From: a virus
IMG/VR virus record: IMGVR_UViG_3300032954_000013
Coordinates: 1-60,827 of that record
Strand: one strand, 5' to 3'
Length of the DNA: 60,827 nt
A model generated the notes under the pieces. The model saw nothing but the letters and a program-made list of their open reading frames with translations, made no database searches and had not been told where the DNA came from. Shown here piece after piece: positions 10,526 through 60,827 of this stretch. Numbering within the stretch: the stretch's first letter is position 1; each line of letters begins with the position of its first letter. Both the position numbers and the translations under genes were made by a program.

Positions 10526-11110
10526 GCCCCATCGTTTTTCATTCGTTCGACGGGCAATCTCACGATGGAAGGCGCGACCTTCCGGGGATCGGTGCCACGC
10601 CATTCTTTTGTCAACCATCTCCCGAGACTGAGTTACTCCGAAATTAGGGTTGTTTGTACCACGGCGAGTCTCGGACAGAAACTTCGCCCATTCGGGGAAC
10701 TTCTTCCCCTTACGAAATCCAGGTTTCCCAAACATCGGATTCGCCGCACCAGATCGACCGGGAGAACCTAATTTCTTTGCGCTAATCTTTCGCTTGGTTT
10801 CCTCCGAGTGCTTTCCGTGCGAACCGCCTGATTTCAGGTTGTACCCGATGCTGCGGTTACGAGAATCGAGGACGGCTATCCACAGCATTTCCAGTCCATC
10901 GAGGTCCTGCTGTGGTGCGTTGGTCAATACGGTTACTGAAAATCCAGCAGGACCATACTTCCGAATGGCCCGACTGAACAGAGAATCGGAACGACGAGAA
11001 TCGGAGATGTGGCCAGCCCACCGCGCCTCTAGGGAGTAGATGGTCTGGCCAACGTAGTACTTCCCATTGGCCAGATTTGTAATCAGATAGATGGTGCCGA
11101 GCTGAATCAT
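10475..11110 (-). CDS. GIY-YIG homing endonuclease (free-standing)
   Basis: 211 residues on the opposite strand from all surrounding late genes. The N-terminus has the GIY-YIG core (GTIYLITNLANGKYYVGQT, catalytic Arg in SLEARWAGH, then Glu/Asn near GYNLKSGG). The C-terminus carries repeated NUMOD-like DNA-binding segments (HSEETKRKISA, NPMFGK, NPNFG). It would cut an intron-less or variant site and spread its own gene. Its last 17 codons are antisense to the portal-MuF 3' end, so it has invaded close to that gene's end without removing it. The start is supported by homology at residue 1. Confidence 0.9.
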   Translation of the reverse strand: MIQLGTIYLITNLANGKYYVGQTIYSLEARWAGHISDSRRSDSLFSRAIRKYGPAGFSVTVLTNAPQQDLDGLEMLWIAVLDSRNRSIGYNLKSGGSHGKHSEETKRKISAKKLGSPGRSGAANPMFGKPGFRKGKKFPEWAKFLSETRRGTNNPNFGVTQSREMVDKRMAWHRSPEGRAFHREIARRTNEKRWGSHTKSDRPDKARAVRV

Positions 11111-11133
11111 TCCGATATTTTACCGCCCCAGGG

Positions 11134-11157
11134 TAGATATTCAAACGCTTACTGAGG
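11134..11157 (+). promoter_or_regulatory. Late repeat element, copy 2
   Basis: TAGATATTCAAACGCTTACTGAGG, differing from the 7694 copy at two core positions, sits between the antisense endonuclease start and the protease gene ATG at 11171. It would restart late transcription after the oppositely oriented insertion. Confidence 0.6.
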
Positions 11158-11170
11158 GTCGCCGGACTCC

Positions 11171-19475: not shown

Positions 19476-21621
19476 CGCAATCGTAGTCTCCATTGGCGCC
19501 GATGTTTCCGGTCTTACTTCCGGAATGACTGAAGCCTCGCATAGCCTTGCTTCTGTCGGCAGCGCGGGATTAAGGGCCGGCGAGCAACTAACCCGCGGCG
19601 GAGCCGCTTTCGAAGAAGCCAAGCTTGCCGCCGGTGCAATGACAGGCTCGATCGAGGAATTGACCCGCGGCTTCGCAAAGTTGGCCGCTGAAAGTCCCGC
19701 CGTTTCAAATCTTCTGCGCGCCGCTATCCCAGTTCTAGCAATCGTTGCGGCAGTCGAAGTCTTTAATGAACTCACGAATAAAATCAGGGAAGAACGCGAT
19801 GCGGTAGAACAGCTCGGGACGGAATACGCGAACTGGTCCGGCACGGCCGTCAAGGGCGTGGAGAGCGTATATCAGGAGGCCCTGAAGCTGGAGAAAGACA
19901 ATCCCATTGCCATAGCGGCGGATGAAGCTCGCCAGAAACTCCTGCAGATGGACGAGCAAATCACCAAAGACATCACCGACCTGAATAAGTTGATTGAGAC
20001 GAAAAACATAGGCTTCTGGTCCTCCTTTGTCACCGGAGCAATGTCGACATCGGATGTCGGCAAGGCTCTCAAGCAGCCGATTCTCGATGTCCAAGAAGCC
20101 ATGAATGCCGTGCGAACGGCAGAGGAGACCTTGGAACTTGACAAAATCAATAAGGTCTCCGGCGAACAGCTCGCCTCCGATCAAAAGGCCATAGATAAAG
20201 CCAAGGAAGAGGCAAGCGCCAGAATTGCAGCCCTCGCTTCAGTGGCCGAAGCACAGCAAAAGCTGACAGAACAGCGAAAGGCTGAGATAGAAAAGCCCAT
20301 CCCGGGCGATGTGTTCGGACTGCCCAAGGAGGACATTGAAAAACGATTTCAGCCTGCCCTCGAAATGATCCAGCAAATCCGGCTCGGTATCTACGCGATG
20401 CAGACGGAATTGAGTCAAGAGGGAACAATTGCATCCGACATCAACAATCGCGGATATGCCGAGGCATTGAAAGCCGGCCAGAACGAAAACGAACTCGCGC
20501 GTAAAAATGCACAGGAAGAACTTACGGTACTTGAACGTCAGTCGGCCGAAGCCAAGAAATTTGCTGCCGATGAGGCCTCCATCGGCAAGAAGAACGCGGA
20601 AGAAGAATTAGAGCGGCTTGAACGCGCCGCGGCGGCCCGAAAAAAGGCGGGCGAGGAACAGTTGGCGGCAACGCGATCCCAAATCGACGCGATACACGAT
20701 GAAATAGCCGGATGGGATGCGGACGTGGCGGCCGAGAAACGGGCCACTGAAGTCGCCAAGGCGGAATCGCCACACAGTCCGGCGGCCGCAAGAACAGCGG
20801 AAAGGGCTGAAATGGCGGCTTTGGCCTTTGAGATAGCGAATGTTACGTCCGCCATGAAGGCGCTTTCTCTGGAAGAATCAAAATTAACCGCCTTGCCAGA
20901 CAAGACTGATCAGCAAAAAGAACAAATAAAGGCGCTTCAAGGCGAGTACGACCAACTCCTTAGAAAGCTTCAGGAACTTCAGAATTCCTATCTGCAGTTA
21001 TCGGTCAAGATCGGCACGGCCACGCAATCAATGGTTAATGCAGCGTGGGTTGGGTTCGATAAATTCAATGAAGGCATTATCAGGGTGATGGAAAACAGCC
21101 AAAGTCTCGGCAGGGCAATGCAGCAGGTCTGGAACTCGATAGCGAGCGCGGTAATCACCGCGCTGTTGCGAACCGTCGAGCAAATGATCATCAACGCCGC
21201 TGTTCAAAAGTCGATCACCGACAGCACAAAAATTTCTGAGGCCGCTGCGGCGGCGCGCCGTACCTACGCAAGTGTCTCGGCGATTCCTTACATTGGCTGG
21301 ATTCTCGCGCCACCAGCGGCGGCAGCGGCGTTCGCTGCGGTTCTCGCATTTGAACGAGGCGGCATCATCCCCGGCGGTATCGGAGAGGCTGTTCCCATGC
21401 TCGGCCACGGGCAGGAGATGGTCCTTCCGGCGCATGTCTCCAACTGGGTGCTGCAGGCCGCGGGAGCGCGCCCGGACGGCTCGGGGGGCAGCAGCAATTT
21501 TCATTATCACGCGCCGGAGGTCAGCGCATTTGATTCGGGCGGCCTTGATCGCGTGTTGAATAACCATGCGGATCGATTCGGCCGCGCCGCGATGCATTAC
21601 CTCAGACGGAGGGCGATGTAG
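19465..21621 (+). CDS. Tape measure protein
   Basis: 718 residues. Long helical and coiled-coil stretches with heptad-like charge (about 240-520), a hydrophobic segment near residues 85-105 (LLRAAIPVLAIVAAVEVF) and another near the C-terminus (IPYIGWILAPPAAAAAFAAVLAF), then a glycine-rich GGIIPGGIGEAVPMLGHGQEMVLP motif common at tape-measure C-termini. Its length would set a tail of roughly 100 nm by the usual 0.15 nm per residue rule. It lies directly after the chaperone pair. Confidence 0.9.
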   Translation: MASSAIVVSIGADVSGLTSGMTEASHSLASVGSAGLRAGEQLTRGGAAFEEAKLAAGAMTGSIEELTRGFAKLAAESPAVSNLLRAAIPVLAIVAAVEVFNELTNKIREERDAVEQLGTEYANWSGTAVKGVESVYQEALKLEKDNPIAIAADEARQKLLQMDEQITKDITDLNKLIETKNIGFWSSFVTGAMSTSDVGKALKQPILDVQEAMNAVRTAEETLELDKINKVSGEQLASDQKAIDKAKEEASARIAALASVAEAQQKLTEQRKAEIEKPIPGDVFGLPKEDIEKRFQPALEMIQQIRLGIYAMQTELSQEGTIASDINNRGYAEALKAGQNENELARKNAQEELTVLERQSAEAKKFAADEASIGKKNAEEELERLERAAAARKKAGEEQLAATRSQIDAIHDEIAGWDADVAAEKRATEVAKAESPHSPAAARTAERAEMAALAFEIANVTSAMKALSLEESKLTALPDKTDQQKEQIKALQGEYDQLLRKLQELQNSYLQLSVKIGTATQSMVNAAWVGFDKFNEGIIRVMENSQSLGRAMQQVWNSIASAVITALLRTVEQMIINAAVQKSITDSTKISEAAAAARRTYASVSAIPYIGWILAPPAAAAAFAAVLAFERGGIIPGGIGEAVPMLGHGQEMVLPAHVSNWVLQAAGARPDGSGGSSNFHYHAPEVSAFDSGGLDRVLNNHADRFGRAAMHYLRRRAM

Positions 21622-37424: not shown

Positions 37425-37437
37425 CGGTAGCTCCATC

Positions 37438-37495
37438 GGGGCGCATGCGTAGTAGCCGCTGTGAATCCGGTCCGTAAACTCTACGCATGCGCCCC
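37438..37495 (+). other. Long inverted repeat (hairpin) in lysis module leader
   Basis: GGGGCGCATGCGTAG (37438-37452) and its exact complement CTACGCATGCGCCCC (37481-37495) form a perfect 15-bp stem with a 28-base loop. No U-tract follows, so it is not a standard terminator; instead AAGGAGG follows directly at 37497. Its loop has no gene. It probably works in the RNA or as a protein binding site. Confidence 0.7.
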
Positions 37496-37525
37496 CAAGG
37501 AGGCTATTGCTTTTGAGGATAATCC

Positions 37526-37579
37526 ATGCCACATTGTCAACCGTTCACTCCGATTGCCCCAACCGGGACGGCGGGTTAG
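37526..37579 (+). CDS. Possible 17-residue leader peptide
   Basis: GAGG lies seven bases before ATG 37526, opening a 17-codon frame rich in Pro and Thr that stops inside the hairpin at 37565-37602. Such an arrangement could couple leader translation to expression of the gene at 37622, as in attenuators. Too short to be sure it is translated. Confidence 0.25.
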   Translation: MPHCQPFTPIAPTGTAG

Positions 37580-37602
37580 GCCCCCTGAACGCCTGCCGTC
37601 CC
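37565..37602 (+). other. Hairpin before the lipoprotein-like gene
   Basis: GGGACGGC (37565-37572) pairs with GCCGTCCC (37595-37602), extended by a partial inner stem. The AAGGAG site of the gene at 37622 begins about eight bases downstream, so the hairpin may adjust ribosome access or stop transcription partially. No run of T follows. Confidence 0.55.
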
Positions 37603-37621
37603 AAGAGATAAGGAGACGAAA

Positions 37622-38224: not shown

Positions 38225-38251
38225 CGGTCGCAAAGCTGAAACGGCTCTAAA

Positions 38252-38446
38252 TTTTTGCGCGGCGGATGCGTAGGACGCATCACCTAAGTGTGAGCACCAA
38301 GCCGAGGGAATCCCGGCTGGCAAAATCCCGGCGGATACGCGGCCAACGTCGGAGACATAGTGGCCTCCGAGCTGCTAGGGAGTCTCAGGGATGGGCTGCG
38401 GCTCACTGCTGAAGGCCCACGGCCGAGTAAGGCAATGCCGCGCAAA
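38252..38446 (+). ncRNA. Structured RNA candidate A (TTTT/AAAA-closed)
   Basis: No ORF is supported here. TTTTGCGCGGC (38252-38262) pairs perfectly with GCCGCGCAAAA (38436-38446), an 11-bp closing stem. Inside, GATGCGT/ACGCATC forms a tight hairpin (38264-38280), GTGAGC (38289-38294) pairs with GCTCAC (38400-38405), AGCCG/CGGCT makes another hairpin (38299-38317), and CGGAG/CTCCG a further one (38349-38368). The element is followed at once by a TTTTAGTGGAG region carrying the ribosome binding site of the papain-like peptidase gene at 38470. It resembles element B at 47943 in closing stem and flanks. It could be cis-regulatory or a processed RNA. Confidence 0.6.
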
Positions 38447-38469
38447 ATCTTTTAGTGGAGAAATAGCCA

Positions 38470-39339
38470 ATGGAACTTCCGCTTTCTCCCGCTGGGCGTC
38501 GGTATGGTGGCAAGCCTTCCCGCATTGACCATCGTGATTACGGCCCTCCGCTGCATATCCTCACGATGCGCGGCCCACTCGCTTCGCGCATTCTGCTCCC
38601 AGACCCTCCAAGCGGTACATCGACGCTCGGTGCGGTAAAAGACCAAGGCCAACAGGGAAGCTGCGATGGTCACGCCTCGAGCGAATGCGGGGAGCGGCTC
38701 TGGCGATTCGTCAAAGGCGAAGCGCTGATCTTCTCGCCAGCGTTCGCCTACTACCAGATTCGCAAATTCGAAGGCACGCTCGACCAGGGCGACTGCGGCG
38801 GCCAGATCGTCTCTGGCATGATCATTGCGGACGGAAATCCCGGTGCTGGGGGCATTGGCTACTGCCCGAATGAGCTGATGCCCTATAACCAAAATGATTG
38901 CTCAACTCCGCCATCGGCAGATGCGCTCGCTGCGGCCGCAAAATATCCGGGCGGCTCGTACCACAACATCGGGAACAATATCGGGCTCATCAAATCCTGC
39001 ATCGCTTCTGGCTACAGCTTCGAAATCGGCATCGCAGTCTACGATTCCTTTGAATCGGATACGGTCGCTGGCAATGGCCTCGTACCGATTCCGGCTCCGA
39101 GCGAGAACCTTCTGGGCTATCATGCGCTCCATTGCGGGATGATCGCTGATGACACGATCAAGTGCCCGGGAGTACCAAATCCCGGCGCCGTGATGTTCCA
39201 GAATAGCTGGGGCTCGAATTGGGGCTGCGAATGCCCGCTGACATCAGAGCGCGGCTACGGCTGGCTCGCCTATGATTTTCTCAATAGCACCGACCTCACG
39301 ATCGATGTCCGCATGAGTCATCTTGGGGGACCTTGGTAG
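38470..39339 (+). CDS. Papain-like (C1) cysteine peptidase
   Basis: 289 residues. All catalytic positions of clan CA C1 peptidases are visible: oxyanion Gln in VKDQGQQGSCDG (Gln59), nucleophile Cys65 (usual CGSCW replaced by GSCDGH), His218 in GYHALHCG, and Asn245 in FQNSWGSNWG. No signal peptide, so it would be cytoplasmic or carried with the virion, or released by the lysis machinery. Length matches a mature C1 domain without propeptide. It may cut host proteins or cell-envelope peptides. A GGAG site precedes ATG 38470, and structured RNA A lies just upstream. Confidence 0.85.
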   Translation: MELPLSPAGRRYGGKPSRIDHRDYGPPLHILTMRGPLASRILLPDPPSGTSTLGAVKDQGQQGSCDGHASSECGERLWRFVKGEALIFSPAFAYYQIRKFEGTLDQGDCGGQIVSGMIIADGNPGAGGIGYCPNELMPYNQNDCSTPPSADALAAAAKYPGGSYHNIGNNIGLIKSCIASGYSFEIGIAVYDSFESDTVAGNGLVPIPAPSENLLGYHALHCGMIADDTIKCPGVPNPGAVMFQNSWGSNWGCECPLTSERGYGWLAYDFLNSTDLTIDVRMSHLGGPW

Positions 39340-39341
39340 CA

Positions 39342-39752
39342 ATGGACCTCAAGACTCTAGTCGCGATGTACAGCAACCCTGCACCCAAAGTGAAGCTCCT
39401 CTGCCTCGGGATCTCGAAGGCCGAGGGCTTCGATGTTCCCGGCTCGCTGCCAGCACGTTGCCACAATCCGGGGGATCTCGAAATTGGCAATGTTGGCTAC
39501 GGCGTAGACAATGGCAAGACGATCTTCCCTGACGATGCGACGGGCTGGGCCGCACTCTACCGCGAAGGCTCGCTGATGCTTGCGGCGATGACGAGTTTGC
39601 ACCGATCACACGTTTACTCGCTCGGAGAGACGTTCCTTCAGGTCGCTCAAGCATGGACAGGGGGCGATAATCCAAGCGGCTGGGCTCAGACGGTCGCGGA
39701 GACTTGCGGGATGTCAGTTACGAACACGCTACAGGAATTCCTCGACGCCTAG
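39342..39752 (+). CDS. Lysozyme/transglycosylase-like endolysin candidate
   Basis: 136 residues, ATG three bases after the peptidase stop. It has the pattern AEGFDVPGSLPARCHNPGDLEIG (residues 27-49) followed by FPDDATGWAALYREG and a C-terminal WTGGDNPSGWAQTVAETCG, as in small phage proteins of the lysozyme-like superfamily (Glu28 would be the catalytic acid). It is the last + strand late gene; the convergent minus-strand operon ends four bases after it. A 6-bp inverted repeat (GACGCC/GGCGTC, 39744-39765) spans the convergent stops. Confidence 0.65.
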   Translation: MDLKTLVAMYSNPAPKVKLLCLGISKAEGFDVPGSLPARCHNPGDLEIGNVGYGVDNGKTIFPDDATGWAALYREGSLMLAAMTSLHRSHVYSLGETFLQVAQAWTGGDNPSGWAQTVAETCGMSVTNTLQEFLDA

Positions 39753-39755
39753 CGC

Positions 39756-40652
39756 TCACGGCGTCTCCTGCGAGGGAGCGGAGAGGGCGGCTTCTACCGG
39801 ACACGTTGGATTATGATGATTGCGCGTGCTCCCCAAGCAGTACGGGCACTTGTCGAACGTCATGCTACGAATCAATCGCTCAAGTTCCGCGATTCGCGCC
39901 TCGGGGGATGGGCCGGGATGGGCGGCTCGCACGAGTTCGCGCAGGCACGGCAGGCAGTCCATCGCCAGGCCCGACGCCGTCTCAGGATGCGGGCACTTCG
40001 TGCGTCCTTCCCACCAGTTCAGAATCGCGTCGCCCTGCCCCGTAGCTTGCTCGCCGAGGCGAGGCTCGGGGGCGCGCTCAGATTGCAATCGCAGGTATTC
40101 GTCGCTCAAGTACTTTATCGTTCGGGCAAAGAAACTGCGATCTTCAGGGGCTTGCTGCGCCGCATCTTGGCAGGCGTCCACTATTTCTCTCGGCCAGTGT
40201 TGTGGAAAATCTCCGCGCGTAGGCTCGGGGGCGGGAGCGGCCACGAACTGACGGACCTGTTCGATACTGTCGGTGACCAGATGCGCCATCTTGACCATCA
40301 AATCCGGTTCGCGCACGCCGGGGATATAGACAACGACTCGCTTTCCGGCGCCGACAGCCCAACCCATTTCCATCGAAGCGGAGGGGCCGCACGGCATCAC
40401 GTAGACGCACACTTCGCAGCCGCGCAAGGCGTCCATGTCCCGCTCAAAACCACGCTCGGCGCATGGATGATTCAATCCAGCGAGGTATTTTGGAATGTCG
40501 CTCGGCCAGTTCTGCCACTCGGGATCGACTTCGCTCCAATGGAATCCCTCGGAGTCCTTGAAGTCATATACGTCATGCCCGTCAGCGCGGAGAACTTTCA
40601 CCACCTCTGGCTGGAAAGTGTTGCGCCACGAACTCGCTACGTAAACTTTCAT
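39756..40652 (-). CDS. Nucleoside 2-deoxyribosyltransferase-like protein with zinc-binding tail
   Basis: 298 residues. The N-terminal 135 residues fit the nucleoside 2-deoxyribosyltransferase/DUF4406-like fold: KVYVASSWRN, DGHDVYDFKDSEGFHWSE, RDMDALRGCEVCVYVMPCGPSASMEMGWAVGAGKRVVVY. Such enzymes swap bases on deoxyribose or handle NAD-like nucleosides. A long charged region follows and ends in CPYCLGSTRNHHNPTCP, a zinc-binding pattern. GGGAAGG precedes its ATG. Last gene of the minus-strand early operon. Confidence 0.75.
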   Translation of the reverse strand: MKVYVASSWRNTFQPEVVKVLRADGHDVYDFKDSEGFHWSEVDPEWQNWPSDIPKYLAGLNHPCAERGFERDMDALRGCEVCVYVMPCGPSASMEMGWAVGAGKRVVVYIPGVREPDLMVKMAHLVTDSIEQVRQFVAAPAPEPTRGDFPQHWPREIVDACQDAAQQAPEDRSFFARTIKYLSDEYLRLQSERAPEPRLGEQATGQGDAILNWWEGRTKCPHPETASGLAMDCLPCLRELVRAAHPGPSPEARIAELERLIRSMTFDKCPYCLGSTRNHHNPTCPVEAALSAPSQETP

Positions 40653-40688
40653 CGCCTTCCCTTTCGCCCCGGCTTGGGGGCCGCACGC

Positions 40689-40829
40689 CTACTCACGTTC
40701 AATGTTGAAATATGGTGCGCTCATAATCGTGCCGCGCTTGTCACTGCGGAACATGAGCGTATCAGGATAGCTCCACCATGTCCCGATAATGCAAATTAGG
40801 AATAGACATTGCCCCACAGCCTCAATCAT
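40689..40829 (-). CDS. Small membrane protein
   Basis: 46 residues from the ATG at 40829, ATGA overlap with the preceding gene in the operon; a longer in-frame start lies within that gene. One hydrophobic segment (AVGQCLFLICIIGTWW) then a polar tail. Function unknown. Confidence 0.55.
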   Translation of the reverse strand: MIEAVGQCLFLICIIGTWWSYPDTLMFRSDKRGTIMSAPYFNIERE

Positions 40830-41152
40830 TTCGTCCTCGGGATAGCGTCCAATGGGCCGAGGATGGCGTCTAGCGCATCCGCAAACATCCTTGCGCCATC
40901 CATCATTCCAACAGCGTGCAGCGGACCAATTGGTGACCGCGCTTTCCATTCGCGCCATTCCTTCTGCGCCGCCCTCAGCCTCGCCTCGATCCTGGCGAGT
41001 TCGTCGGCAATATCGTTTTGTGCGGCCGCGTAGTTGTCCATTTTCAGATATTTGTACTCAAGTCCACGACTTTTGAATTCCACAGGAACGGACTCTAGCG
41101 CCTCGCGGCGCAATTTCTCAATCAGTTCGTGCAGGGTGGTGGGTTCAGGCAT
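40826..41152 (-). CDS. Hypothetical coiled-coil protein
   Basis: 108 residues, helical and charged (DIADELARIEARLRAAQKEWREW), with an Ala-rich C-terminal segment. Its start overlaps the end of the upstream gene by 8 bases and its stop overlaps the next ATG, so translation is coupled on both sides. No family recognised. Confidence 0.65.
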   Translation of the reverse strand: MPEPTTLHELIEKLRREALESVPVEFKSRGLEYKYLKMDNYAAAQNDIADELARIEARLRAAQKEWREWKARSPIGPLHAVGMMDGARMFADALDAILGPLDAIPRTK

Positions 41153-41393
41153 CTACCGTCTCCTGATGCAGCGCCAATTCAAGTGCCGCCGATTTTGCTC
41201 CCAGAATGTTTCCCCAAGTATCGCCCTGAATTATGCGATTGCGCGAGATGGCAGAAACCAAATATCGCGTTGGCCTCTTCGGGTAGCCGAAATCACTGTC
41301 GTCGGTTACTGCCGCAGTCCAACCGTTCGGTAGAGGCAGATACCAACTCCAAATCTTGTTGACCTTGTCAAAAGATATTTCCCACTCAGCCAC
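41145..41393 (-). CDS. Hypothetical protein, aromatic-rich
   Basis: 82 residues from a GTG with a GAGG site. The sequence (WEISFDKVNKIWSWYLPLPNGWTAAVTDD, split by a turn) is beta-rich with many Trp/Tyr residues. No zinc pattern or membrane helix. Family unknown. Confidence 0.6.
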   Translation of the reverse strand: MAEWEISFDKVNKIWSWYLPLPNGWTAAVTDDSDFGYPKRPTRYLVSAISRNRIIQGDTWGNILGAKSAALELALHQETVDA

Positions 41394-41396
41394 GCT

Positions 41397-41645
41397 TCAC
41401 CTCTCCTTTCCTCGCGCCCGTCGAGGAGTGAGGGGACGCTCACGCTGCGTAATCTCTGGGCGATCTATGAAGTGAATCCGACGAGCATGAGAAGAAGCCG
41501 CATTTCGTGCTTGGGTCATCGGCAGGACTGGTCTCTCGCGTTCCCACTTTCCAGTGTAAGTCCCCGACCAGTTGCAATGTTCGCAATCAAGCACGACGAT
41601 AGCTCGCGGTCCTTTTGAAACAACTGTGGCTCTGAAATCGCTCAT
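41397..41645 (-). CDS. Small protein with CxxC zinc-like motif
   Basis: 82 residues from the ATG at 41645, which has AAAGGAACG upstream; an in-frame ATG at 41678 would add eleven residues and increase overlap with the next gene. CEHCNWSGTYTGKW resembles half a zinc ribbon. The C-terminus is strongly basic (RARGKER). Confidence 0.55.
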   Translation of the reverse strand: MSDFRATVVSKGPRAIVVLDCEHCNWSGTYTGKWERERPVLPMTQARNAASSHARRIHFIDRPEITQRERPLTPRRARGKER

Positions 41646-41847
41646 TTCGCACGTTCCTTTCGAGGGAGGCTTTGACACGGCGATTCAAACTCGACCTAAG
41701 TAAGCGCATGATGCAACGCGCCATTGCCGATGAATCGCGTTCGTGGTCATAGCGCAAATGCTCAAAGAGAGTCTGGCGATACGGTTTCTCGCCGCACAAT
41801 GGACAAGTTCTCGGCTGTCGCACCTTTCCCTTCCCTCGCCGGGTCAT
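41587..41847 (-). CDS. C2H2-type zinc finger protein
   Basis: 86 residues. CPLCGEKPYRQTLFEHLRYDH fits a classical C2H2 finger; the rest is basic and helical, so nucleic-acid binding is likely. Its last 59 bases overlap the following gene out of frame, so the true C-terminus may be under-constrained. The ATG is in an ATGA overlap with the gene upstream. Confidence 0.55.
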   Translation of the reverse strand: MTRRGKGKVRQPRTCPLCGEKPYRQTLFEHLRYDHERDSSAMARCIMRLLRSSLNRRVKASLERNVRNERFQSHSCFKRTASYRRA

Positions 41848-42131
41848 TGGCCGCGCTCCAAGTCTGCGATGCGGTCATCGCACAGACAGCGTAGCTCGCA
41901 AGCGGTATTACAACATTCAGTTTTGAATCGTTTCGCCTCATCCAGCCGCGCCTCTCGCTTCGCGTCCGCGAGGGCTGAAATCAGTGTGCCTTCTACGCGC
42001 CTAGCGAAATCAACTTCCCAATCGAACACAATCAGCTTGCCGTCGAAAGTCTTGATGTCGGGAAGCAGTTTGGCGATCTTCTCAGCCAATTCCCGCGCTC
42101 TCTCGCGCTCGGCGTCGGTGGGGTTGGTCAT
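41844..42131 (-). CDS. Hypothetical helical protein
   Basis: 95 residues from the ATG at 42131, chosen because it is in an ATGA overlap; a TTG at 42152 is in the same frame. Charged helical N-terminus (DAERERARELAEKIAKLLPD) and a C-terminal cluster of four cysteines (ECCNTACELRCLC). Function unknown. Confidence 0.6.
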   Translation of the reverse strand: MTNPTDAERERARELAEKIAKLLPDIKTFDGKLIVFDWEVDFARRVEGTLISALADAKREARLDEAKRFKTECCNTACELRCLCDDRIADLERGQ

Positions 42132-42358
42132 ATGGCTGCGCTTTTTCCGCAAGGTTGCGAAACATCAATGCAACTTCCGCCCCAAGCGCAGGCCGCTTGG
42201 TAGGAGAAGCGTACCGCGCGAGGCAAGCAGCTATCGCAGGCATGGAGATCGCCGTATTTACGAACAGTCGGATGATCCGGTTGACATTCTCGTGCGCCGC
42301 ACAAATCGCACATCTTGTGTCGGCAGCGCGGCGCGTCGGTAATCGGGGAGGAGGTCAT
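42128..42358 (-). CDS. Small zinc-ribbon protein
   Basis: 76 residues from the ATG at 42358, just after a GGAGGAGG-like site on the minus strand. CDLCGARE ... CDSCLP gives a four-cysteine zinc ribbon. Coupled to both neighbours by ATGA. Function unknown. Confidence 0.6.
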   Translation of the reverse strand: MTSSPITDAPRCRHKMCDLCGARECQPDHPTVRKYGDLHACDSCLPRAVRFSYQAACAWGGSCIDVSQPCGKSAAI

Positions 42359-42618
42359 AATTTTCTCCGAAGTGCTTCTTTCTGTAACGCCGCGATGATC
42401 GTTTCTGGCTTGTGGCCGATCAGTCCCAAGCCCGGCCTGCAATCCTGCGGCGAAATCTTTCCGTTCAAATGATCCTCGACAGGACCGCCACAAATCTCAC
42501 AGTCGATTGAGTATCCGTCCAGGCCATTACGATTCGTGTCGGCACCCGCACGAACGACTGCATCGAATAAAGTTTCTCCAGGGCAAACCGTTGTATGCAG
42601 AAGTCTTTGGCTCATCAT
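42355..42618 (-). CDS. Hypothetical protein with CxxC motif
   Basis: 87 residues; two adjacent ATG codons at 42618 and 42615, the second better spaced from GGAGGAG. One CEICGG motif and a central HLNGKISPQDCRPG segment. The C-terminal helix is basic. Coupled by ATGA with both neighbours. Family unknown. Confidence 0.6.
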   Translation of the reverse strand: MMSQRLLHTTVCPGETLFDAVVRAGADTNRNGLDGYSIDCEICGGPVEDHLNGKISPQDCRPGLGLIGHKPETIIAALQKEALRRKL

Positions 42619-43058
42619 TCTCCTCCGCTCTTGCGCCCCGGATTTGCGCCCCGCGTCCGCTCGTCATACCGCTCAAACGCCATCTTGAGACTGGCGGCGT
42701 TGAACCATCGGCTGCCGCAAAGGGTGTCCTGAGCGCCAGCCATCACCAGTTGCACGTCGTGCAGGAATTCGCTCAGATCGTTGCGCTCGCTTTCAATATC
42801 ACGCACACGCTTGTTTAGAATAGCCGTATCGAATGTCCAACTGCTCTGCCACATCGCGGAATCCCGTTTCGCTTCGTCACGCTCGCGGCGAATTGATTCA
42901 AGCTCACCGCTCAAGCGCGTGGCCTCCGCTCTGGCGTGACGATACATCTCTCTTTCTATGTCGATGTATTGACTAAGAGACACGCGACGCGATTCGGATT
43001 CTATCCGCAGCCGTTCACAGTTACGGCACTTCTTCGGCTTGGCAGGGGTGCGCTTCAT
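42615..43058 (-). CDS. Coiled-coil protein with N-terminal CxxC
   Basis: 147 residues. A basic N-terminus with CRNCERLR leads into a long coiled coil (RHARAEATRLSGELESIRRERDEAKRD, in two blocks), then ERYDERTRG. It may be a scaffold or DNA-associated protein of the early operon. Coupled to the gene upstream by ATGA. Confidence 0.65.
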   Translation of the reverse strand: MKRTPAKPKKCRNCERLRIESESRRVSLSQYIDIEREMYRHARAEATRLSGELESIRRERDEAKRDSAMWQSSWTFDTAILNKRVRDIESERNDLSEFLHDVQLVMAGAQDTLCGSRWFNAASLKMAFERYDERTRGANPGRKSGGE

Positions 43059-43276
43059 TCTCTTGACCTCGCGAAGAATCCTGCTCGGCTCTTGTCCATG
43101 TGGCTCAGAACATCGTCAACAGTTCGCATGGCGTGAGGGTAGAGGCAGAGAGTGCTGCGAGTTTCGGGATCGTGGAACAACACCAGCGGCCCGTTGCGTG
43201 ATTCCTGGATGCCGCAGAATCGGGCACCGGCCTTCTCAATCAATTGCTGGCAGCGAATGAGTTCGTCGGGAGTCAT
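43055..43276 (-). CDS. Hypothetical protein
   Basis: 73 residues, alpha/beta, ATGA-coupled on both sides. The sequence contains LVLFHDPETRSTLCLYPHAMRTVDDVL and a C-terminal AGFFARSRE. No motif recognised. Confidence 0.6.
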   Translation of the reverse strand: MTPDELIRCQQLIEKAGARFCGIQESRNGPLVLFHDPETRSTLCLYPHAMRTVDDVLSHMDKSRAGFFARSRE

Positions 43277-43833
43277 TGGCTTTCCTCCACAGGAATCTTG
43301 AGATTTTCCCGAACAATACTCGCCATGTTCCTTAGAGCGCCAGCCCTAGTGGCGGCGGCGGCGGCGGCGGCGGCGTAGGCGGCGTCGGCGGCGTCGGCGG
43401 CGTCGTAGGCGGCGGCGGCGTAGGCGGCGGCGTAGGCGGCGTAGGCGGCGTCGGCGGCGGCGGCGACGGCGGCGGCGTAGGCGGCGTAGGCGGCGTCGGC
43501 GGCGGCGGCGACGGCGGCTCGGGCTTGCGCTTTCGTTCCTGTCCCATTTGCCCATGCTCGTGCTGCTTCGATGACCTTGCGTGGACGATCATTCTTGGGA
43601 TATTTTTTTTCGAATATCGGAAGAGCGGTTTCAGCACACAAACAAACAACGAGAACGATTTGTTGATGGGTCGGCCAGCCGTCTTTGCCAATCATTCGCC
43701 CGCACAGCCACAACATCCAATCGGCGCGCTCACACTCGGCCCACGCGGTTGCAAGATCGCGCTCGCCGACCCAGTTAACCGCATCGTTGCAGGCACCCAA
43801 TCTGTTCAGCAGCTTACCGAGTTCAGTTTTCAT
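43273..43833 (-). CDS. Imm5-like immunity-type protein with alanine repeat
   Basis: 186 residues from the ATG at 43833; the reading frame stays open further upstream but without a sensible start. The N-terminal half (LGACNDAVNWVGERDLATAWAEC, then RADWMLWLCGRM) closely resembles the Imm5-type fold of polymorphic-toxin immunity proteins, which also occur in phages. It is followed by about 60 residues made almost only of Ala, Tyr and Asp, encoded by a GGC/GTA/GTC tandem array. Copy number changes of the 45-bp unit would keep the frame. Role in the phage unknown; neutralising a host toxin is a fair guess. Confidence 0.65.
   Translation of the reverse strand: MKTELGKLLNRLGACNDAVNWVGERDLATAWAECERADWMLWLCGRMIGKDGWPTHQQIVLVVCLCAETALPIFEKKYPKNDRPRKVIEAARAWANGTGTKAQARAAVAAAADAAYAAYAAAVAAAADAAYAAYAAAYAAAAYDAADAADAAYAAAAAAAATRAGALRNMASIVRENLKIPVEESQ
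43350..43521. repeat. Trinucleotide-based tandem array with a 45-bp duplicated unit
   Basis: On the + strand the region reads as repeated GGCGGCGTA and GGCGGCGTC blocks. A 45-base unit at 43432-43476 is repeated exactly at 43477-43521. All units are multiples of three, so length change leaves the minus-strand frame of the Imm5-like gene intact. Confidence 0.85.
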
Positions 43834-44078
43834 CGCCCGTATCTCCCTTCCCGGCTTTCCACGTCGAAGTCGAAGTCCACGTTTTCTTCGCACAGTTCCC
43901 GCTGCGTCTGGGCGTTTCTCTCCGCGCAGCATTTTTCGCACATGGCTGTCGTGCCTTCGACCATCGGCCGACGGTGGGGCTCGACGCAGACACCGCACCT
44001 GTCGCAGTAATAGGGGATGCCGAGCCAGTCGCAGAGACGATGAAGAGCAGTCGAGATGAAGCGGAGAACTTGAATCAT
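43830..44078 (-). CDS. Small zinc-finger protein
   Basis: 82 residues from the ATG at 44078, with AAGGAG ten bases upstream. An amphipathic start (VLRFISTALHRLCDWLGI) and CDRCGVC ... CEKCCAE, a four- or five-cysteine zinc site, then an acidic tail. ATGA-coupled to the gene at 44200. Function unknown. Confidence 0.6.
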   Translation of the reverse strand: MIQVLRFISTALHRLCDWLGIPYYCDRCGVCVEPHRRPMVEGTTAMCEKCCAERNAQTQRELCEENVDFDFDVESREGRYGR

Positions 44079-44200
44079 ACGCGTTTCTCCTTCCGATACT
44101 CCGAGCACTTCGCCTCCACGCACCAATAGATGATCTCGGTTCGCTCGCGCGTGCCGCGAATCTCGCGAGCCATTGGGCGTTTGCAGGCGGGGCAGATCAT
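44075..44200 (-). CDS. Very small zinc-ribbon protein
   Basis: 41 residues from the ATG at 44200, in ATGA overlap with the nuclease gene and with the following gene. CPACKRP and CVEAKC give a compact zinc site; the remainder is basic (REIRGTRERTE, YRKEKRV). Too short for a family call. Confidence 0.55.
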   Translation of the reverse strand: MICPACKRPMAREIRGTRERTEIIYWCVEAKCSEYRKEKRV

Positions 44201-45033
44201 GCTGATACCTCAGTGTTCAACTGCGGCCGTATTTGAGCTATTCGCACGGTATCGCCTTTGGCAAAGTGAATGAAGTTTTCCGCATCCGCCTGATGACGAA
44301 GCAGCAGCCCGCGAAGACTAATTCGGAATACTTTGGTTCCCAAAGGAGAAGGCAGGAGAAGGTAGATCGGCTCAGGGAAATGCGGAACTTGCAAGAGCCG
44401 AAGCACATATAAGTCAACGTGCTCCTCCGAGAGAACTTTGTGTCGATGGATATTGAATGACCATTCTATTTTTGTAGATGTCTTTTTGCCACGCACATTG
44501 AGGTGTGCGTTGGCGCTCTTGACTTCAATACGGCAGTTCCCATCCACGAGCAAATCGAATTTATCCCTTCGGCCCATTCGCTTGACGACGCGCCCATAAG
44601 ATCGCAGCAACTCCGCAACGGCCTCTTCAGCTTCACGCCCGTGGGCTGACCTGAATCCCAGCGGAGTCCCGGCATCGCCAGTGCTATATTTTCTATATTG
44701 ATGGTACCTACACAGATCGGAACGCTTCGCCAGATCCTTACAACCCGCAATGGCGCATGGGTGGAGCGGAACGCGATGGGCCCCGGATGGCCTCAAAATC
44801 AGATCGCCATTCCGATGTATTCGTGCGATGTGCGTATGACAAAGTCCCTTTTCTTTAGCCTGCGAGAAGCAGCCTTCTACATAGCAGGTCTTGCCTCGAT
44901 TGTCACAAAAAGTGCGCGACAACCCATGATTCCGTGCAAAGCGATAATGATATTCGCAAAGTCCCTTAGCGCGTGGTGGATTATTGCAATCTGGCAGCAG
45001 GCAGGTCATTCCTTGAATTCGCGGGCGTCCCAT
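44197..45033 (-). CDS. Triple zinc-finger protein fused to PD-(D/E)XK nuclease
   Basis: 278 residues from the ATG at 45033. Three successive fingers of the form CxxxxCxxxxxxxGLCxxH occur at about residues 10-38, 50-77 and 92-120 (CLLPDCNNPPRAKGLCEYH, CYVEGCFSQAKEKGLCHTH, CAIAGCKDLAKRSDLCRYH), as in DNA-binding parts of phage HNH enzymes. The C-terminal half has a nuclease core: GREAEEAVAELL, KFDLLVDGNCRIEVKSA (Asp and ExK). It is probably a site-specific endonuclease. First gene of the minus-strand operon: TTGACT and TATAAG at ideal spacing end so close to the ATG that the mRNA may be leaderless. Confidence 0.7.
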   Translation of the reverse strand: MGRPRIQGMTCLLPDCNNPPRAKGLCEYHYRFARNHGLSRTFCDNRGKTCYVEGCFSQAKEKGLCHTHIARIHRNGDLILRPSGAHRVPLHPCAIAGCKDLAKRSDLCRYHQYRKYSTGDAGTPLGFRSAHGREAEEAVAELLRSYGRVVKRMGRRDKFDLLVDGNCRIEVKSANAHLNVRGKKTSTKIEWSFNIHRHKVLSEEHVDLYVLRLLQVPHFPEPIYLLLPSPLGTKVFRISLRGLLLRHQADAENFIHFAKGDTVRIAQIRPQLNTEVSA

Positions 45034-45040
45034 GCAATCT

Positions 45041-45069
45041 CTTATACGCCTGCGTATCCAGCCAGTCAA
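45041..45069 (-). promoter_or_regulatory. Sigma70-like promoter for the minus-strand early operon
   Basis: On the minus strand, TTGACT (45069-45064) and TATAAG (45046-45041) are separated by 17 bases. The expected start point falls at or next to the ATG at 45033. Confidence 0.7.
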
Positions 45070-45088
45070 GAAAAATAAGTAATACCAA

Positions 45089-45117
45089 TTGACTTTTCCA
45101 GAATCTTCCATTAGCAT
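45089..45117 (+). promoter_or_regulatory. Sigma70-like promoter for the plus-strand early operon
   Basis: TTGACT (45089-45094), 17-base spacer, TAGCAT (45112-45117; 4 of 6 matches to TATAAT). It faces the promoter at 45041-45069; their -35 boxes form an inverted repeat with a 19-base centre, a likely place for a shared regulator such as the RHH protein encoded immediately downstream. Confidence 0.55.
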
Positions 45118-45137
45118 GAACGGGCATGGGAGGCATG

Positions 45138-45308
45138 ATGCAGACAAGCGAGAGAACGGACGCTTCAATCTCGGCGAAGATTCCCGCCGATCTTTACGAC
45201 AAGCTGGTAGCCGCTGCCGAAAAAGGGCGGCGCTCAATCGCGGCGCAGATTGAGTTGATTCTTGAGCGCGGGCTGAAAAAGAGGAAAGAAAAAAGGATGA
45301 AACAATGA
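45138..45308 (+). CDS. Arc/ribbon-helix-helix-type transcription regulator
   Basis: 56 residues. TDASISAKIPADLYDKLVAAAEKGRRSIAAQIELILERGL has the strand-helix-helix layout of RHH repressors, and a basic tail follows. The ATG at 45138 sits five bases after GGGAGG; ATG 45126 and 45135 are in frame but poorly spaced. It is the first gene after the divergent promoters and would be expected to bind between them as a dimer. Next gene overlaps by four bases. Confidence 0.75.
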   Translation: MQTSERTDASISAKIPADLYDKLVAAAEKGRRSIAAQIELILERGLKKRKEKRMKQ

Positions 45309-45511
45309 CTCGCCTCGAAATCACCGACCGCCGCATCTGTCCTGATTGTAAGGGCCGGAGATTTATCGGCCCCTATCTCTGCGCGCGCTGCAATGGTGAC
45401 GGCTCCGTGATCGTGGACGCGAGCTTCCGACATTTCACTCGCATCGTTGTCGCGGTCGCTTTCGTTCTCATGGTGCTCGGCGCGAGCTATCTGATCGTGG
45501 GGCGACCGTGA
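45305..45511 (+). CDS. Zinc-finger membrane protein
   Basis: 68 residues. CPDCKGRRFIGPYLCARCNGDG is a DnaJ-type zinc pattern, followed by a membrane helix (IVVAVAFVLMVLGASYLIV). The zinc domain would face the cytoplasm. ATGA overlaps on both sides. Function unknown. Confidence 0.65.
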   Translation: MTRLEITDRRICPDCKGRRFIGPYLCARCNGDGSVIVDASFRHFTRIVVAVAFVLMVLGASYLIVGRP

Positions 45512-45729
45512 GCATCGTGCCATCTTCGGTTCGTTGTGACGGATGTGGCAAGAATCGCATCGAAGACGGAAATCATTGGCATACGCTACGGGCACCAGGG
45601 GCCGATCCGCTGCAAATCACGAAGGGCGTGCAGACTGCTGGATATGGCAAGCACGCCTGCGGCGAAGCGTGCGCGATGAAACTGGTTTCCCGCTGGATGG
45701 CGACGGGAACACTTGAGGAGAAAACTTGA
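45508..45729 (+). CDS. Small zinc-binding protein
   Basis: 73 residues, GTG start in GTGA overlap. RCDGCGKNRIED and HACGEACAMKLVSRW form a treble-clef-like arrangement, similar to small phage proteins with a CxxC...CxxxC pattern. Cytoplasmic; role unknown. Confidence 0.65.
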   Translation: MSIVPSSVRCDGCGKNRIEDGNHWHTLRAPGADPLQITKGVQTAGYGKHACGEACAMKLVSRWMATGTLEEKT

Positions 45730-45806
45730 TCGAATTTCTCCGAGGCACGCATAAGTACCGTTTCAAGGGTCAGCCGTTGCTCGGCGTCACAGCCGAGAGT
45801 GTTTGA
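45726..45806 (+). CDS. Possible 26-residue peptide
   Basis: TTG 45726 in a TTGA overlap opens a 26-codon frame (MIEFLRGTHKYRFKGQPLLG at the start) that reaches 45806, 42 bases before the next gene. A protein-like sequence and coupling give modest support; no function. Confidence 0.3.
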   Translation: MIEFLRGTHKYRFKGQPLLGVTAESV

Positions 45807-45847
45807 GTTGGAAGAAACAGAAGCACAAATCAAAAGGGGGTAAGGCA

Positions 45848-46789
45848 ATGGAAAACGAACATGATGTGGTAGAAGGCGAATTCTCGGAGGGCCAGCTTGC
45901 GCCTCCGAAAAGCACGCTAGACCATGCAATCGAAACGCGCGAACGGCTCGGCCAACTCGCCCGGCCGATCAACGTCTCGGAAATGCTCGCAGCGGCAGAC
46001 AAGCAAATCGAATTCCGCCGCGGGCTTGTGAAGCTAATCGCCACGAAGATCGATCCGCATGATGTGGTGATCTATGGCAACACGCCAGCGAAGTTCAGCA
46101 TTCACTTCTCGAAGGCCGCCTGCAAACAGATTCTCTCCTGGGTGCAGGCTGACGTCGTGAACGTGAGAATCACGCAGACTTCCTACGAGGGCAAGGAAGG
46201 TCCATACATCGTTTTCGAATGCTCTGCTGACATGCTCATCGGCGGGCGCCGAGTCAACGTCATCGGCAGCCGTGCGACCTACGACGATTTCTTCGGCTCG
46301 GAGGGCAAGTACGACGAGCAGGGCAAAAAGACGACTGTCCAGAAGCCGCTCGATGAGATCGACATTCCTTCCGTCCGCATGGCGGCCGTAACGAATATGT
46401 GGAATCACGCTCTCGAAGATGCGGGCCTTAAACCGTCACTTGAAGAACTCAAGAATGCTGGCCTTGACCTCGGCAAAGCATCCTACGTGCAATTCCGCGA
46501 GGGCGGGAAGGCGCCGGAACAGACTAAACAGGCCCAGACCGCCACGGGAGGAGACCAAAAGCCTCCAAATGGCGGTGCCAAGGCCACAGCAGCCTCTGAT
46601 GGCGACGTAGAGCTGATTTCCGAGGCTCAGGCCAAGAGACTATTCGCCATCGCCAAAAACCTAGGTTGGAGCACCGAGCAGTACCGTGCGGCTTTGGCGA
46701 GTGAATTCGCGGTCAATCGGGACACCGGGCTTCCGAAGTCGCGCTATGCGGCAGCGGAGAAATACTTCATCGACAATCGGAAAAGCTAA
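45848..46789 (+). CDS. Recombination-associated protein, ssDNA-annealing candidate
   Basis: 313 residues from ATG 45848 (GTAAGG site). The region of about residues 38-190 (INVSEMLAAADKQIEFRRGLVKLIATKIDPHD, in two blocks, then YIVFECSADMLIGGRRVNVIGSRATYDDFF) is an alpha/beta domain often encoded just before a Cas4/RecB-like nuclease. A Gly/Gln-rich linker separates a C-terminal helical domain (ELISEAQAKRLFAIAKNLGW) that resembles DNA-binding tails of phage annealing proteins. Its stop overlaps the nuclease ATG, so the two are likely partners in recombination or replication. Confidence 0.55.
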   Translation: MENEHDVVEGEFSEGQLAPPKSTLDHAIETRERLGQLARPINVSEMLAAADKQIEFRRGLVKLIATKIDPHDVVIYGNTPAKFSIHFSKAACKQILSWVQADVVNVRITQTSYEGKEGPYIVFECSADMLIGGRRVNVIGSRATYDDFFGSEGKYDEQGKKTTVQKPLDEIDIPSVRMAAVTNMWNHALEDAGLKPSLEELKNAGLDLGKASYVQFREGGKAPEQTKQAQTATGGDQKPPNGGAKATAASDGDVELISEAQAKRLFAIAKNLGWSTEQYRAALASEFAVNRDTGLPKSRYAAAEKYFIDNRKS

Positions 46790-47784
46790 TGGCCGAGACA
46801 CTCGCTCCCGAAGTTGTCGTCCAGGAATACGAACGCTACAAACTCCATGACTCTGGCGTGCGTTCGCGGGGCATTGCGACCGCGAACCACGTCACGACTC
46901 TCGTACATGAGTGCGAGGCATTCGCCATCTATAACCGAACGGTGCCAGCCGACCGGCGCCGCAAACTCGATCCACGCCTGGCGATGGTGTTTTCGGAAGG
47001 CAACGACCAGAGCCGCATCGTGAAGCGGGATCTCATGGACGCGGGATTTGAGATTGAGGAACAGGAAGGACAAATGTCTTGGCCGGAATTCCAGATCGTA
47101 GGGCACCAGGACTTTTCAATCCGCAAATCCGGCTTCGCCCGCGTCAAAGTCGAACTCAAATCCTGTTCGCCTTATACCTACGAGAGCATCAATTTGGTGG
47201 ACGACCTGCGCCATCACAAGTGGCCTTTCGCGCGCCATTGGTATTCTCAGATCGTGCTGTACATGCTCCTGCAGAATGCGGAGCGATATTGGCTCGTTCT
47301 CAAGCACAAAGCGGCAGGCTCGATCAAGGTGATTGAATTCCATCTCGGCGACGAAGAGTATGCCGAGGCGGAACGACTCATCAGCAAAGCCAAGCGAGTG
47401 AATGAGGCGGTTGCAGCCAAACGTGAACCCACATCGGAGGAAAAACTTTCGGCACCGGATGTCTGCGCCGGATGTGAATTCTTCGATGTTTGTCTCCCCG
47501 ATCTCAGCTTCGGTGCGCGGATGGAAGTGCTCGATGCCGAGACTGCGGCTGAACTCGAACGTGCGCTGGAACGCAGGCAGGAACTCGAAAAGGCGCACAA
47601 GGAATATGAAGCGATAGACGACGACGTGAAATCGCAGATCAAGGCGATGGCATCCGAGCAGCTTGCGGAAGTCGTGATCGGTAGCTGGATTGCGACAATC
47701 CGCTATCAGGAAGTGAAGCCTGAGACGAAGCCGCGGGCGGGTTTTACCAAGACACTCATCAAGTTCTTCAAAGCGGGGGCGTAA
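46789..47784 (+). CDS. Cas4/RecB-like PD-(D/E)XK nuclease
   Basis: 331 residues. The nuclease core is visible in FQIVGHQDFSIRK (Asp) and RVKVELKSCS (ExK) near residues 100-126, with a Cys upstream (LVHECEAF) and CAGCEFFDVC near residue 225, the cysteines that hold an Fe-S cluster in Cas4-type enzymes. The C-terminal 100 residues form a helical extension. It would resect DNA ends for the annealing partner at 45848. There is no CRISPR array in the window, so a Cas role is unlikely. Confidence 0.75.
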   Translation: MAETLAPEVVVQEYERYKLHDSGVRSRGIATANHVTTLVHECEAFAIYNRTVPADRRRKLDPRLAMVFSEGNDQSRIVKRDLMDAGFEIEEQEGQMSWPEFQIVGHQDFSIRKSGFARVKVELKSCSPYTYESINLVDDLRHHKWPFARHWYSQIVLYMLLQNAERYWLVLKHKAAGSIKVIEFHLGDEEYAEAERLISKAKRVNEAVAAKREPTSEEKLSAPDVCAGCEFFDVCLPDLSFGARMEVLDAETAAELERALERRQELEKAHKEYEAIDDDVKSQIKAMASEQLAEVVIGSWIATIRYQEVKPETKPRAGFTKTLIKFFKAGA

Positions 47785-47785
47785 T

Positions 47786-47938
47786 ATGAAGCGTTATTGC
47801 CGCTGTGGCCGCCGCGCCCGAGCGGTCACGCGCAAGCGCAGAGGCAATCGGCGCGGGAAGTACATGCAGCGTAAATCGCACGATCTTTGTCCCAGATGTT
47901 TCCGGGCAATCGTGAACGCGAATTCGGAGAAGGAGTGA
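47786..47938 (+). CDS. Small basic zinc-binding protein
   Basis: 50 residues from ATG 47786, two bases after the nuclease stop. CRCGRRARAVTRKRRG and CPRCFRAIV give a zinc ribbon with a highly basic loop, as expected for nucleic-acid binding. Its stop lies four bases before structured RNA B. Confidence 0.6.
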   Translation: MKRYCRCGRRARAVTRKRRGNRRGKYMQRKSHDLCPRCFRAIVNANSEKE

Positions 47939-47942
47939 CGAA

Positions 47943-48091
47943 TTTTGGAGCCGACCTAATCCATTGCGGGCCAACCGCTGACTTGGAAAGCCGCACAACG
48001 GCGAGCAGTGGGAGTACAGCAGCCAAGGTGCCAAGAGGCGCTCTACAGCGGGTTCGGGTGCTACGGACGCGGTAGCGGGTCGGCTTCAAAA
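47943..48091 (+). ncRNA. Structured RNA candidate B (TTTT/AAAA-closed)
   Basis: TTTTGGAGCCGACC (47943-47956) pairs with GGTCGGCTTCAAAA (48078-48091), a 14-bp closing stem with one G-T pair. Inside, CCGCTG (47975) pairs with CAGCGG (48046), CTTGG (47982) with CCAAG (48023), GCCG/CGGC forms a hairpin (47990-48002) and GCTAC/GTAGC another (48060-48076), a clear multibranched fold. AGTTTAGAGGCGAAGGAG follows, which holds the ribosome binding site for 48114. The closing-stem ends and the downstream TTTAG-purine stretch match element A. A 62-codon frame crosses it but lacks support. Confidence 0.6.
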
Positions 48092-48113
48092 GTTTAGAGG
48101 CGAAGGAGTGACG

Positions 48114-48530
48114 ATGACTGATCTCGCCAAAGCATTTGAGCCGAAAGAAGGCTGGTGGACTGAGACGATAGCCGGGCGTCCGTGGTTCACCGATGGCCAG
48201 GTGATGTTTGAAGGTGAGCAGCAAACCTCGCGACCGCCTTTGTCCAAAGGATCAATGGCGAAAGTCTATAAAAAGATCACCGCCGCACGGCTGACGCGAC
48301 TAGGGCGAGTGAGGCACGGATTAACTGGTTACTCGACGTGCGAGATAGCGACTTCCACCTTTGCCAATGGTCCTCGCATCCAGCGCGTCTATTTCGACTA
48401 TGCCAAAAGCCTCGGTGCCGAATTCTTTGCGGGAGCGCAATGCGGAGAGAGCAAAAGGGACCGCTACGTCATTTGCAAGGCGAAAGGCAAGATCATCGGC
48501 ATAATCATGCCTGTACGATACACCGATTGA
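48114..48530 (+). CDS. Hypothetical protein
   Basis: 138 residues from ATG 48114, five bases after AAGGAG; the earlier GTG 48108 overlaps that site. Beta-rich (WWTETIAGRPWFTDGQVMFEG, then IQRVYFDYAKSLGAEFFAG and IIGIIMPVRYTD), no membrane segment or zinc motif. It is preceded by structured RNA B, which may control it. Family unknown. Confidence 0.65.
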   Translation: MTDLAKAFEPKEGWWTETIAGRPWFTDGQVMFEGEQQTSRPPLSKGSMAKVYKKITAARLTRLGRVRHGLTGYSTCEIATSTFANGPRIQRVYFDYAKSLGAEFFAGAQCGESKRDRYVICKAKGKIIGIIMPVRYTD

Positions 48531-60549: not shown

Positions 60550-60827
60550 GTGAAAGTATTGCTGAGCTGCCATCTGAGCGAAGAGTTGCACGATTCAATC
60601 CGGCTCGGCAATCCCAGGATGCGAGAACTGAATGTGACCGTGCCGCTGCTGGCGGCGCATCGCATCCACGAGGAGCGCCGCATCGCCCTGAGCATCGGCA
60701 CGGCGCTCGAATCCTGGCGTCCGAAACTCTACCGCCGCGGCATCAATCTGCTCTCGGTCTCGCAGGAAGGCTTGATCTCGAATGTTTTCGGAATCGCCGA
60801 CAGAATCTGCCAGCACATCTACCGCAC
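60550..60827 (+). CDS. Hypothetical protein, N-terminal part (continues at window start)
   Basis: The 5' part of the gene cut by the window ends; the rest is at 3-293. GTG 60550 is the first conventional start in frame. An AAGGGG site nine bases before an in-frame CTG at 60490 and protein-like sequence between (TPNSNPALFPLCGLLRDRG) suggest that translation might begin earlier. See the entry at 3-293 for the joined product. Confidence 0.6.
   Translation, partial: MKVLLSCHLSEELHDSIRLGNPRMRELNVTVPLLAAHRIHEERRIALSIGTALESWRPKLYRRGINLLSVSQEGLISNVFGIADRICQHIYR
60701..60827. repeat. Terminal direct repeat, right copy
   Basis: Exact copy of bases 1-127; together they show the circular form of the contig. 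Confidence 0.95.

Follow-up and report, generated by a model that had tools for sequence, protein, structure and literature searches.

Two gaps between genes of the 60,827-nt viral DNA stretch analysed here (the window) are each filled by a segment, E1 and E2, whose ends pair in a long closing stem and which stops exactly 22 nt short of the downstream ATG (38470 and 48114, respectively; Table 1). We tentatively read these segments as lineage-specific, stem-closed mRNA spacers that would provide the downstream gene with its 5' boundary or context. The architecture common to both consists of a long closing stem, a domain of 150-195 nt, and an end 22 nt before the start codon, and this kind of layout recurs in related phages. 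A first-pass annotation of this DNA had proposed a single multibranched RNA class comprising both segments; such a class is not established.

The window originates from an IMG/VR virus record. Its 127-nt direct terminal repeat (1-127 = 60701-60827) indicates that it is probably a complete genome of ~60.7 kb. It codes for a terminase, a portal, and a siphophage-like tail module, and is an uncharacterised, soil-type, siphophage-like genome. Brevundimonas phages are its distant relatives; nearer ones are soil-type IMG/VR phages, the tail proteins of which are at most 48% identical to those of the window. Another phage set shares its RecT-like/exonuclease module at 38-49% identity. One identical exonuclease locus is carried by a Terriglobia MAG, which hints at an acidobacterial host.

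The first-pass annotation located both segments correctly to within 1 nt. They lie between genes, in gaps without a supported ORF, start with TTTT, end with AAAA, and are followed by TTTAG and a ribosome-binding site, all as it had described. The closing stems are present as well, at the lengths listed in Table 1 when G-U pairs are counted (one in E1, two in E2). In a scan for TTTT..AAAA closures with at least 10 contiguous pairs and a span of 100-260, E1 and E2 were the only ones on the plus strand, compared with 0.3 per strand in dinucleotide shuffles. When stem strength alone is considered and TTTT/AAAA is ignored, five stems of the window match that of E1, and six shuffles give 1-6; the E2 stem is the strongest in the window by this measure (0-2 in six shuffles). 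Stems as strong as that of E1 also occur inside genes of the window; what makes E1 and E2 unusual is that their stems fill intergenic gaps. In a coarse fold scan of 30-60.8 kb (12 shuffles per scan window), neither segment was extreme at arbitrary scan-window boundaries. In a third long gap of the lysis region, 37425-37621, GGGGCGCATGCGTAG/CTACGCATGCGCCCC forms a perfect 15-bp inverted repeat and GGGACGGC/GCCGTCCC another hairpin; the fold z is -3.25.

Table 1. Coordinates of E1, E2, and neighbouring features in the window, and of elements upstream of gp10-like genes in related phages (given as locus:positions)
Feature	Position	Strand	Remark
E1, stem-closed segment between genes	38253..38447	+	12-pair closing stem; whole-element fold z -3.45
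E1 closing stem, 5' arm	38253..38264	+	
E1 internal hairpin GATGCGT/ACGCATC	38265..38281	+	P>0.8
E1 inner multihelix region	38290..38406	+	helices P>0.8; interior z only -1.7
E1 closing stem, 3' arm	38436..38447	+	
TTTTAG and ribosome-binding site GGAG of the gene 3' of E1	38450..38460	+	
Gene 3' of E1, papain-like peptidase-related protein	38470..39339	+	weak PHROG match to peptidase
Cas4-like exonuclease gene, 5' of E2	46789..47784	+	query for finding related phages
E2, stem-closed segment between genes	47943..48091	+	15-pair closing stem; whole-element fold z -3.0
E2 closing stem, 5' arm	47943..47957	+	
E2 closing stem, 3' arm	48077..48091	+	
TCAAAAGTTTAGA, one mismatch from junction palindrome TCTAAAGTTTAGA	48086..48098	+	overlaps E2 3' arm
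Ribosome-binding site AAGGAG of the gene 3' of E2 (start 48114)	48103..48108	+	
gp10-upstream element	L095:2979-3132		
gp10-upstream element	L096:2551-2704		
gp10-upstream element	L100:2130-2268		
gp10-upstream element	L101:1193-1327		
gp10-upstream element	L105:2254-2373		
gp10-upstream element	L109:2879-2990		
gp10-upstream element	L112:3008-3127		
gp10-upstream element	L115:2607-2720		

Recurrence of the layout was assessed in gaps of 110-420 nt of the window and related phages; each gap was scored by the best inverted repeat whose loop measured 80 or more. Of the 223 non-redundant gaps, delimited by our own simple gene caller, 13 hold an inverted repeat scoring at least as high as that of E1, where 1.6 would be expected and none of 20 shuffles exceeds 4; 11 of the 13 are outside the window. 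Coding segments reach this score in 4 of 240 cases. Several tail-related phages also carry long-range stems upstream of a late gene that starts M.IEI.GL.EL and resembles HK97 gp10. These stems comprise 7-13 pairs, span 100-154 nt, and end 10-27 nt before the start codon; E1 and E2 likewise have a long closing stem and end shortly before a start codon. The four gp10-upstream elements tested (L109, L112, L115, and L101) have fold z values from -2.6 to -4.65. The scanned loci have no Rfam match, and the L115 copy has no blastn match in phage records. The elements of L109, L112, and L115 align well and gave a model, R1, whose best further match is the syntenic L095/L096 element (E 0.75); three double changes in the fitted alignment, which leans towards R1, accompany this match. 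R1 had no match at E1 or E2 with filters off, and nine diverse gp10-upstream elements aligned poorly and gave no RNAalifold consensus. The gp10-upstream elements (L095, L100, L105, L109, L112, and L115) are like E1 and E2 in layout but differ from them in sequence and location. We consider it probable that this phage group genuinely has such stems and such a layout.

The TTTAG-purine stretch, judging by the sequences of relatives, looks like a separate gene-junction/ribosome-binding signal. The palindrome TCTAAAG(G)TTTAGA is repeated in G008, G009, and G010, which are related to the window by their exonuclease (L016-L019, L055-L058, and L062-L064); counterpart palindromes with a similar composition number 0-4 in the same 1.7 Mb. 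Several of its copies mark gene junctions: the stop codon of the preceding gene falls at the motif, the following gene starts 2-17 nt after it, or both; one copy lies directly 3' of the exonuclease gene and is followed by AAGGAG or AAGGGG. The 3' edge of E2, TCAAAAGTTTAGA, occupies a place syntenic to TCTAAAGTTTAGA of related phages, which have the junction motif without the TTTT..AAAA closure. As a candidate host site, TCTAAAGTTTAGA was rejected, having 1 match among 101 Terriglobia genomes. The junction motif thus explains part of the AAAA..TTTAG likeness of E1 and E2 without recourse to an RNA class.

This motif, together with the choice of TTTT..AAAA ends by eye, would account for the likeness of E1 and E2 if both were functionless chance or residual inverted repeats, a reading that deserves serious weight while being on the unlikely side. 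The number of E1-strength stems in the window, which is within the range of the shuffles, argues for it, as do the interior of E2, which folds at the shuffled level, and the homologue searches described below. It is opposed by the fact that both stems fill intergenic gaps and by the excess of stems in gaps of the phage group.

Taken individually, E1 is plausibly a folded domain, whereas the most that can be predicted for E2 is a stem enclosing a loosely folded loop. This contrast follows from interior z values, helix counts, and the stability of the stems in different contexts. When only the interior is shuffled and the closing stem is held constant, the z of E1 is -1.7 and that of E2 is 0.02; E1 has seven internal helices with P > 0.7 and E2 a single one. 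The folding energy of E2 is thus attributable to its closing stem alone. Consequently, the first-pass description of three or more hairpins in each segment is unsupported for E2 and only weakly borne out for E1. The closing stem of E1 is predicted with P ~0.93 in all contexts tried, whatever the 3' end, whereas that of E2 drops out of the predicted fold once at least ~130 nt of the downstream gene is added, and would be only marginally favoured when this gene is included. The Shine-Dalgarno sequence of the gene 3' of E1 is predicted to pair with that gene's own coding sequence (5 of 300 shuffles were as good); this pairing has no connection to E1, and it is unlike what would be expected for a simple insulator. 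A scan for intrinsic terminators (a short GC-rich hairpin with a U run) gave no site where E1 or E2 ends; one weak site, 38234-38246, precedes E1.

The statement that neither segment matches a known family was upheld by a covariance-model search of the whole window against Rfam 15, which gave nothing at the gathering threshold. At E values up to 5, E1 had no match and E2 had only weak chance matches to lncRNAs; ARAGORN called no tRNA or tmRNA at either. No homologue of E1 or E2 was found in IMG/VR pattern scans, phage/plasmid records, related phages, or 399 Terriglobia genomes. The exact closing-stem pattern of E2 has no occurrence in IMG/VR; the single match to that of E1 lies within coding sequence resembling a DNA methylase and is therefore ascribed to chance. 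A 26-nt match of E2 in mycobacteriophages, from the phage/plasmid nucleotide search, was likewise dismissed as chance. Blast against the 399 Terriglobia genomes returned matches of 20-49 nt only, and those translated and read fell in coding sequence. Single-sequence models of E1 and E2 were searched against 299 genomes and 1.27 Mb of DNA from related phages, and the best non-self match was within a coding frame of what looks like a tail assembly gene. In one tail-protein relative (L099), two Twister-P5 ribozymes are present on the minus strand, at 20196-20250 and 20478-20552, ~230 nt apart.

With regard to the proposed common class, the architecture is shared and the sequences are not: the local alignment of E1 with E2 was equalled or beaten by 57 of 300 shuffles, and the best match of an E1 covariance model in the E2 neighbourhood, although placed exactly on E2, scored only 5.4 bits, owing to the ends common to both. 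It is quite unlikely, in our estimation, that the segments represent a new class of structured non-coding RNA (a regulatory RNA, ribozyme, or released small RNA) with at least two members. The occurrence of the same layout twice in one genome, the whole-element fold z values, the well-defined helices of the E1 interior, and the absence of an Rfam family are in line with such a class; the lack of common sequence or internal structure between E1 and E2, the lack of detected homologues, and the sufficiency of the closing stem to explain the energy of E2 are not. GOLLD and ROOL are phage-associated RNAs, and E1 and E2 would resemble them, and OLE, in being structured non-coding RNA. These large ornate RNAs, the structures of which are available (PMC12286853), are much larger than E1 and E2, which have no Rfam match.

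E2 could alternatively be a translational switch, in which the 3' arm would pair with the 5' arm in one state, exposing the ribosome-binding site, and with the beginning of the following gene in the other, enclosing the site. Such a switch might be governed by ribosomes finishing a 50-codon ORF that terminates 4 nt 5' of the E2 5' arm. In 47925-48160, these folds differ little in energy (-82.3 and -82.1), and adding more downstream sequence tips the balance to the second. However, this second pairing is no stronger than with shuffled downstream sequence, 165 of 500 shuffles being as good, and equally strong pairing is shown by 364 of 1539 other segments of the window; we regard the switch as improbable.

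Equally improbable is that the gaps are short or decayed coding regions. Per-codon scores of the best open frames of E1 and E2 are -0.045. This value lies above the 95th percentile of wrong frames (-0.10) but below the 5th percentile of real genes (-0.016), so that a coding origin is weakly possible. Direct reading of the interval after the exonuclease gene in L016/L019 revealed an ORF ending ..EKSKV* at the junction motif. On the other hand, the frames of both segments are broken or have no supported start, and the corresponding intervals of L017 and L018, also read directly, look non-coding and are structurally different. After the exonuclease gene, L017 (5' of 6267) and L018 (5' of 6121) contain two homologous structured stretches of ~95 nt that have in common GGGGCG..GGCCTGGGCCG..CGCCCC. 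Finally, miniature mobile elements would account for the terminal inverted repeats and defined ends, but the termini of E1 and E2 are unlike in sequence and no further copies turned up elsewhere in the window, in related phages, or in Terriglobia genomes, which makes this origin highly improbable.

The reading as stem-closed spacers places the role of E1 and E2 at the level of mRNA because, in both operons, a stem-closed domain ends at a fixed short distance before a start codon. E1 and E2 would be two separate lineage-specific spacers, presumably transcribed within polycistronic mRNA, with ends pairing in a 12-15 bp stem and thereby closing off 150-195 nt as a domain of its own. The stem may insulate the next ribosome-binding region from upstream sequence; alternatively, cleavage or stabilisation at the stem may provide the downstream gene with a defined 5' end. 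We infer transcription, in-cell folding, and processing or insulation from this layout. Processing between genes by RNase III is exemplified by T7 early mRNA, and RNase III sites of phage polycistronic mRNAs are comparable in that a stem lies in an operon gap shortly before the next ribosome-binding site. Those classical sites, however, are local hairpins, whereas the arms of E1 and E2 are 150-195 nt apart, and their cleavage is only putative. Processing stems of the pre-rRNA type similarly bracket a long domain, but the stems of E1 and E2 are shorter (12-15 pairs) and enclose no known stable RNA.

A broader proposition is that long-range stems, each ending 10-27 nt before a start codon, bracket intergenic spacers in both the late and the early operons of this lineage, so that E1, E2, and the gp10-upstream element would be separate instances of a recurrent, sequence-diverse mRNA element; we consider it unlikely. 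If the architecture is functional, it would provide a signature by which mRNA organisation could be recognised in a large group of environmental phages that is almost uncharacterised, and would show where processing sites or new RNAs could be sought. Otherwise, it illustrates that a conserved junction motif and a chance inverted repeat can mimic an RNA class.

Several features elsewhere in the window should be mentioned. The motif AGATATAGAAACGCTT is repeated at 7694, 11135, 12199, 17840, and 28571 (0.16 occurrences expected by chance); four of the five copies are directly 5' of late gene starts, and the motif is a probable phage late promoter or initiation signal. Between the portal and head genes, the minus strand, read by eye, contains a probable GIY-YIG-type homing endonuclease ORF (10525-11171). 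Also on the minus strand, 43273-43998 encodes a low-complexity, alanine-rich protein with GGCGGCGTA-type repeats.
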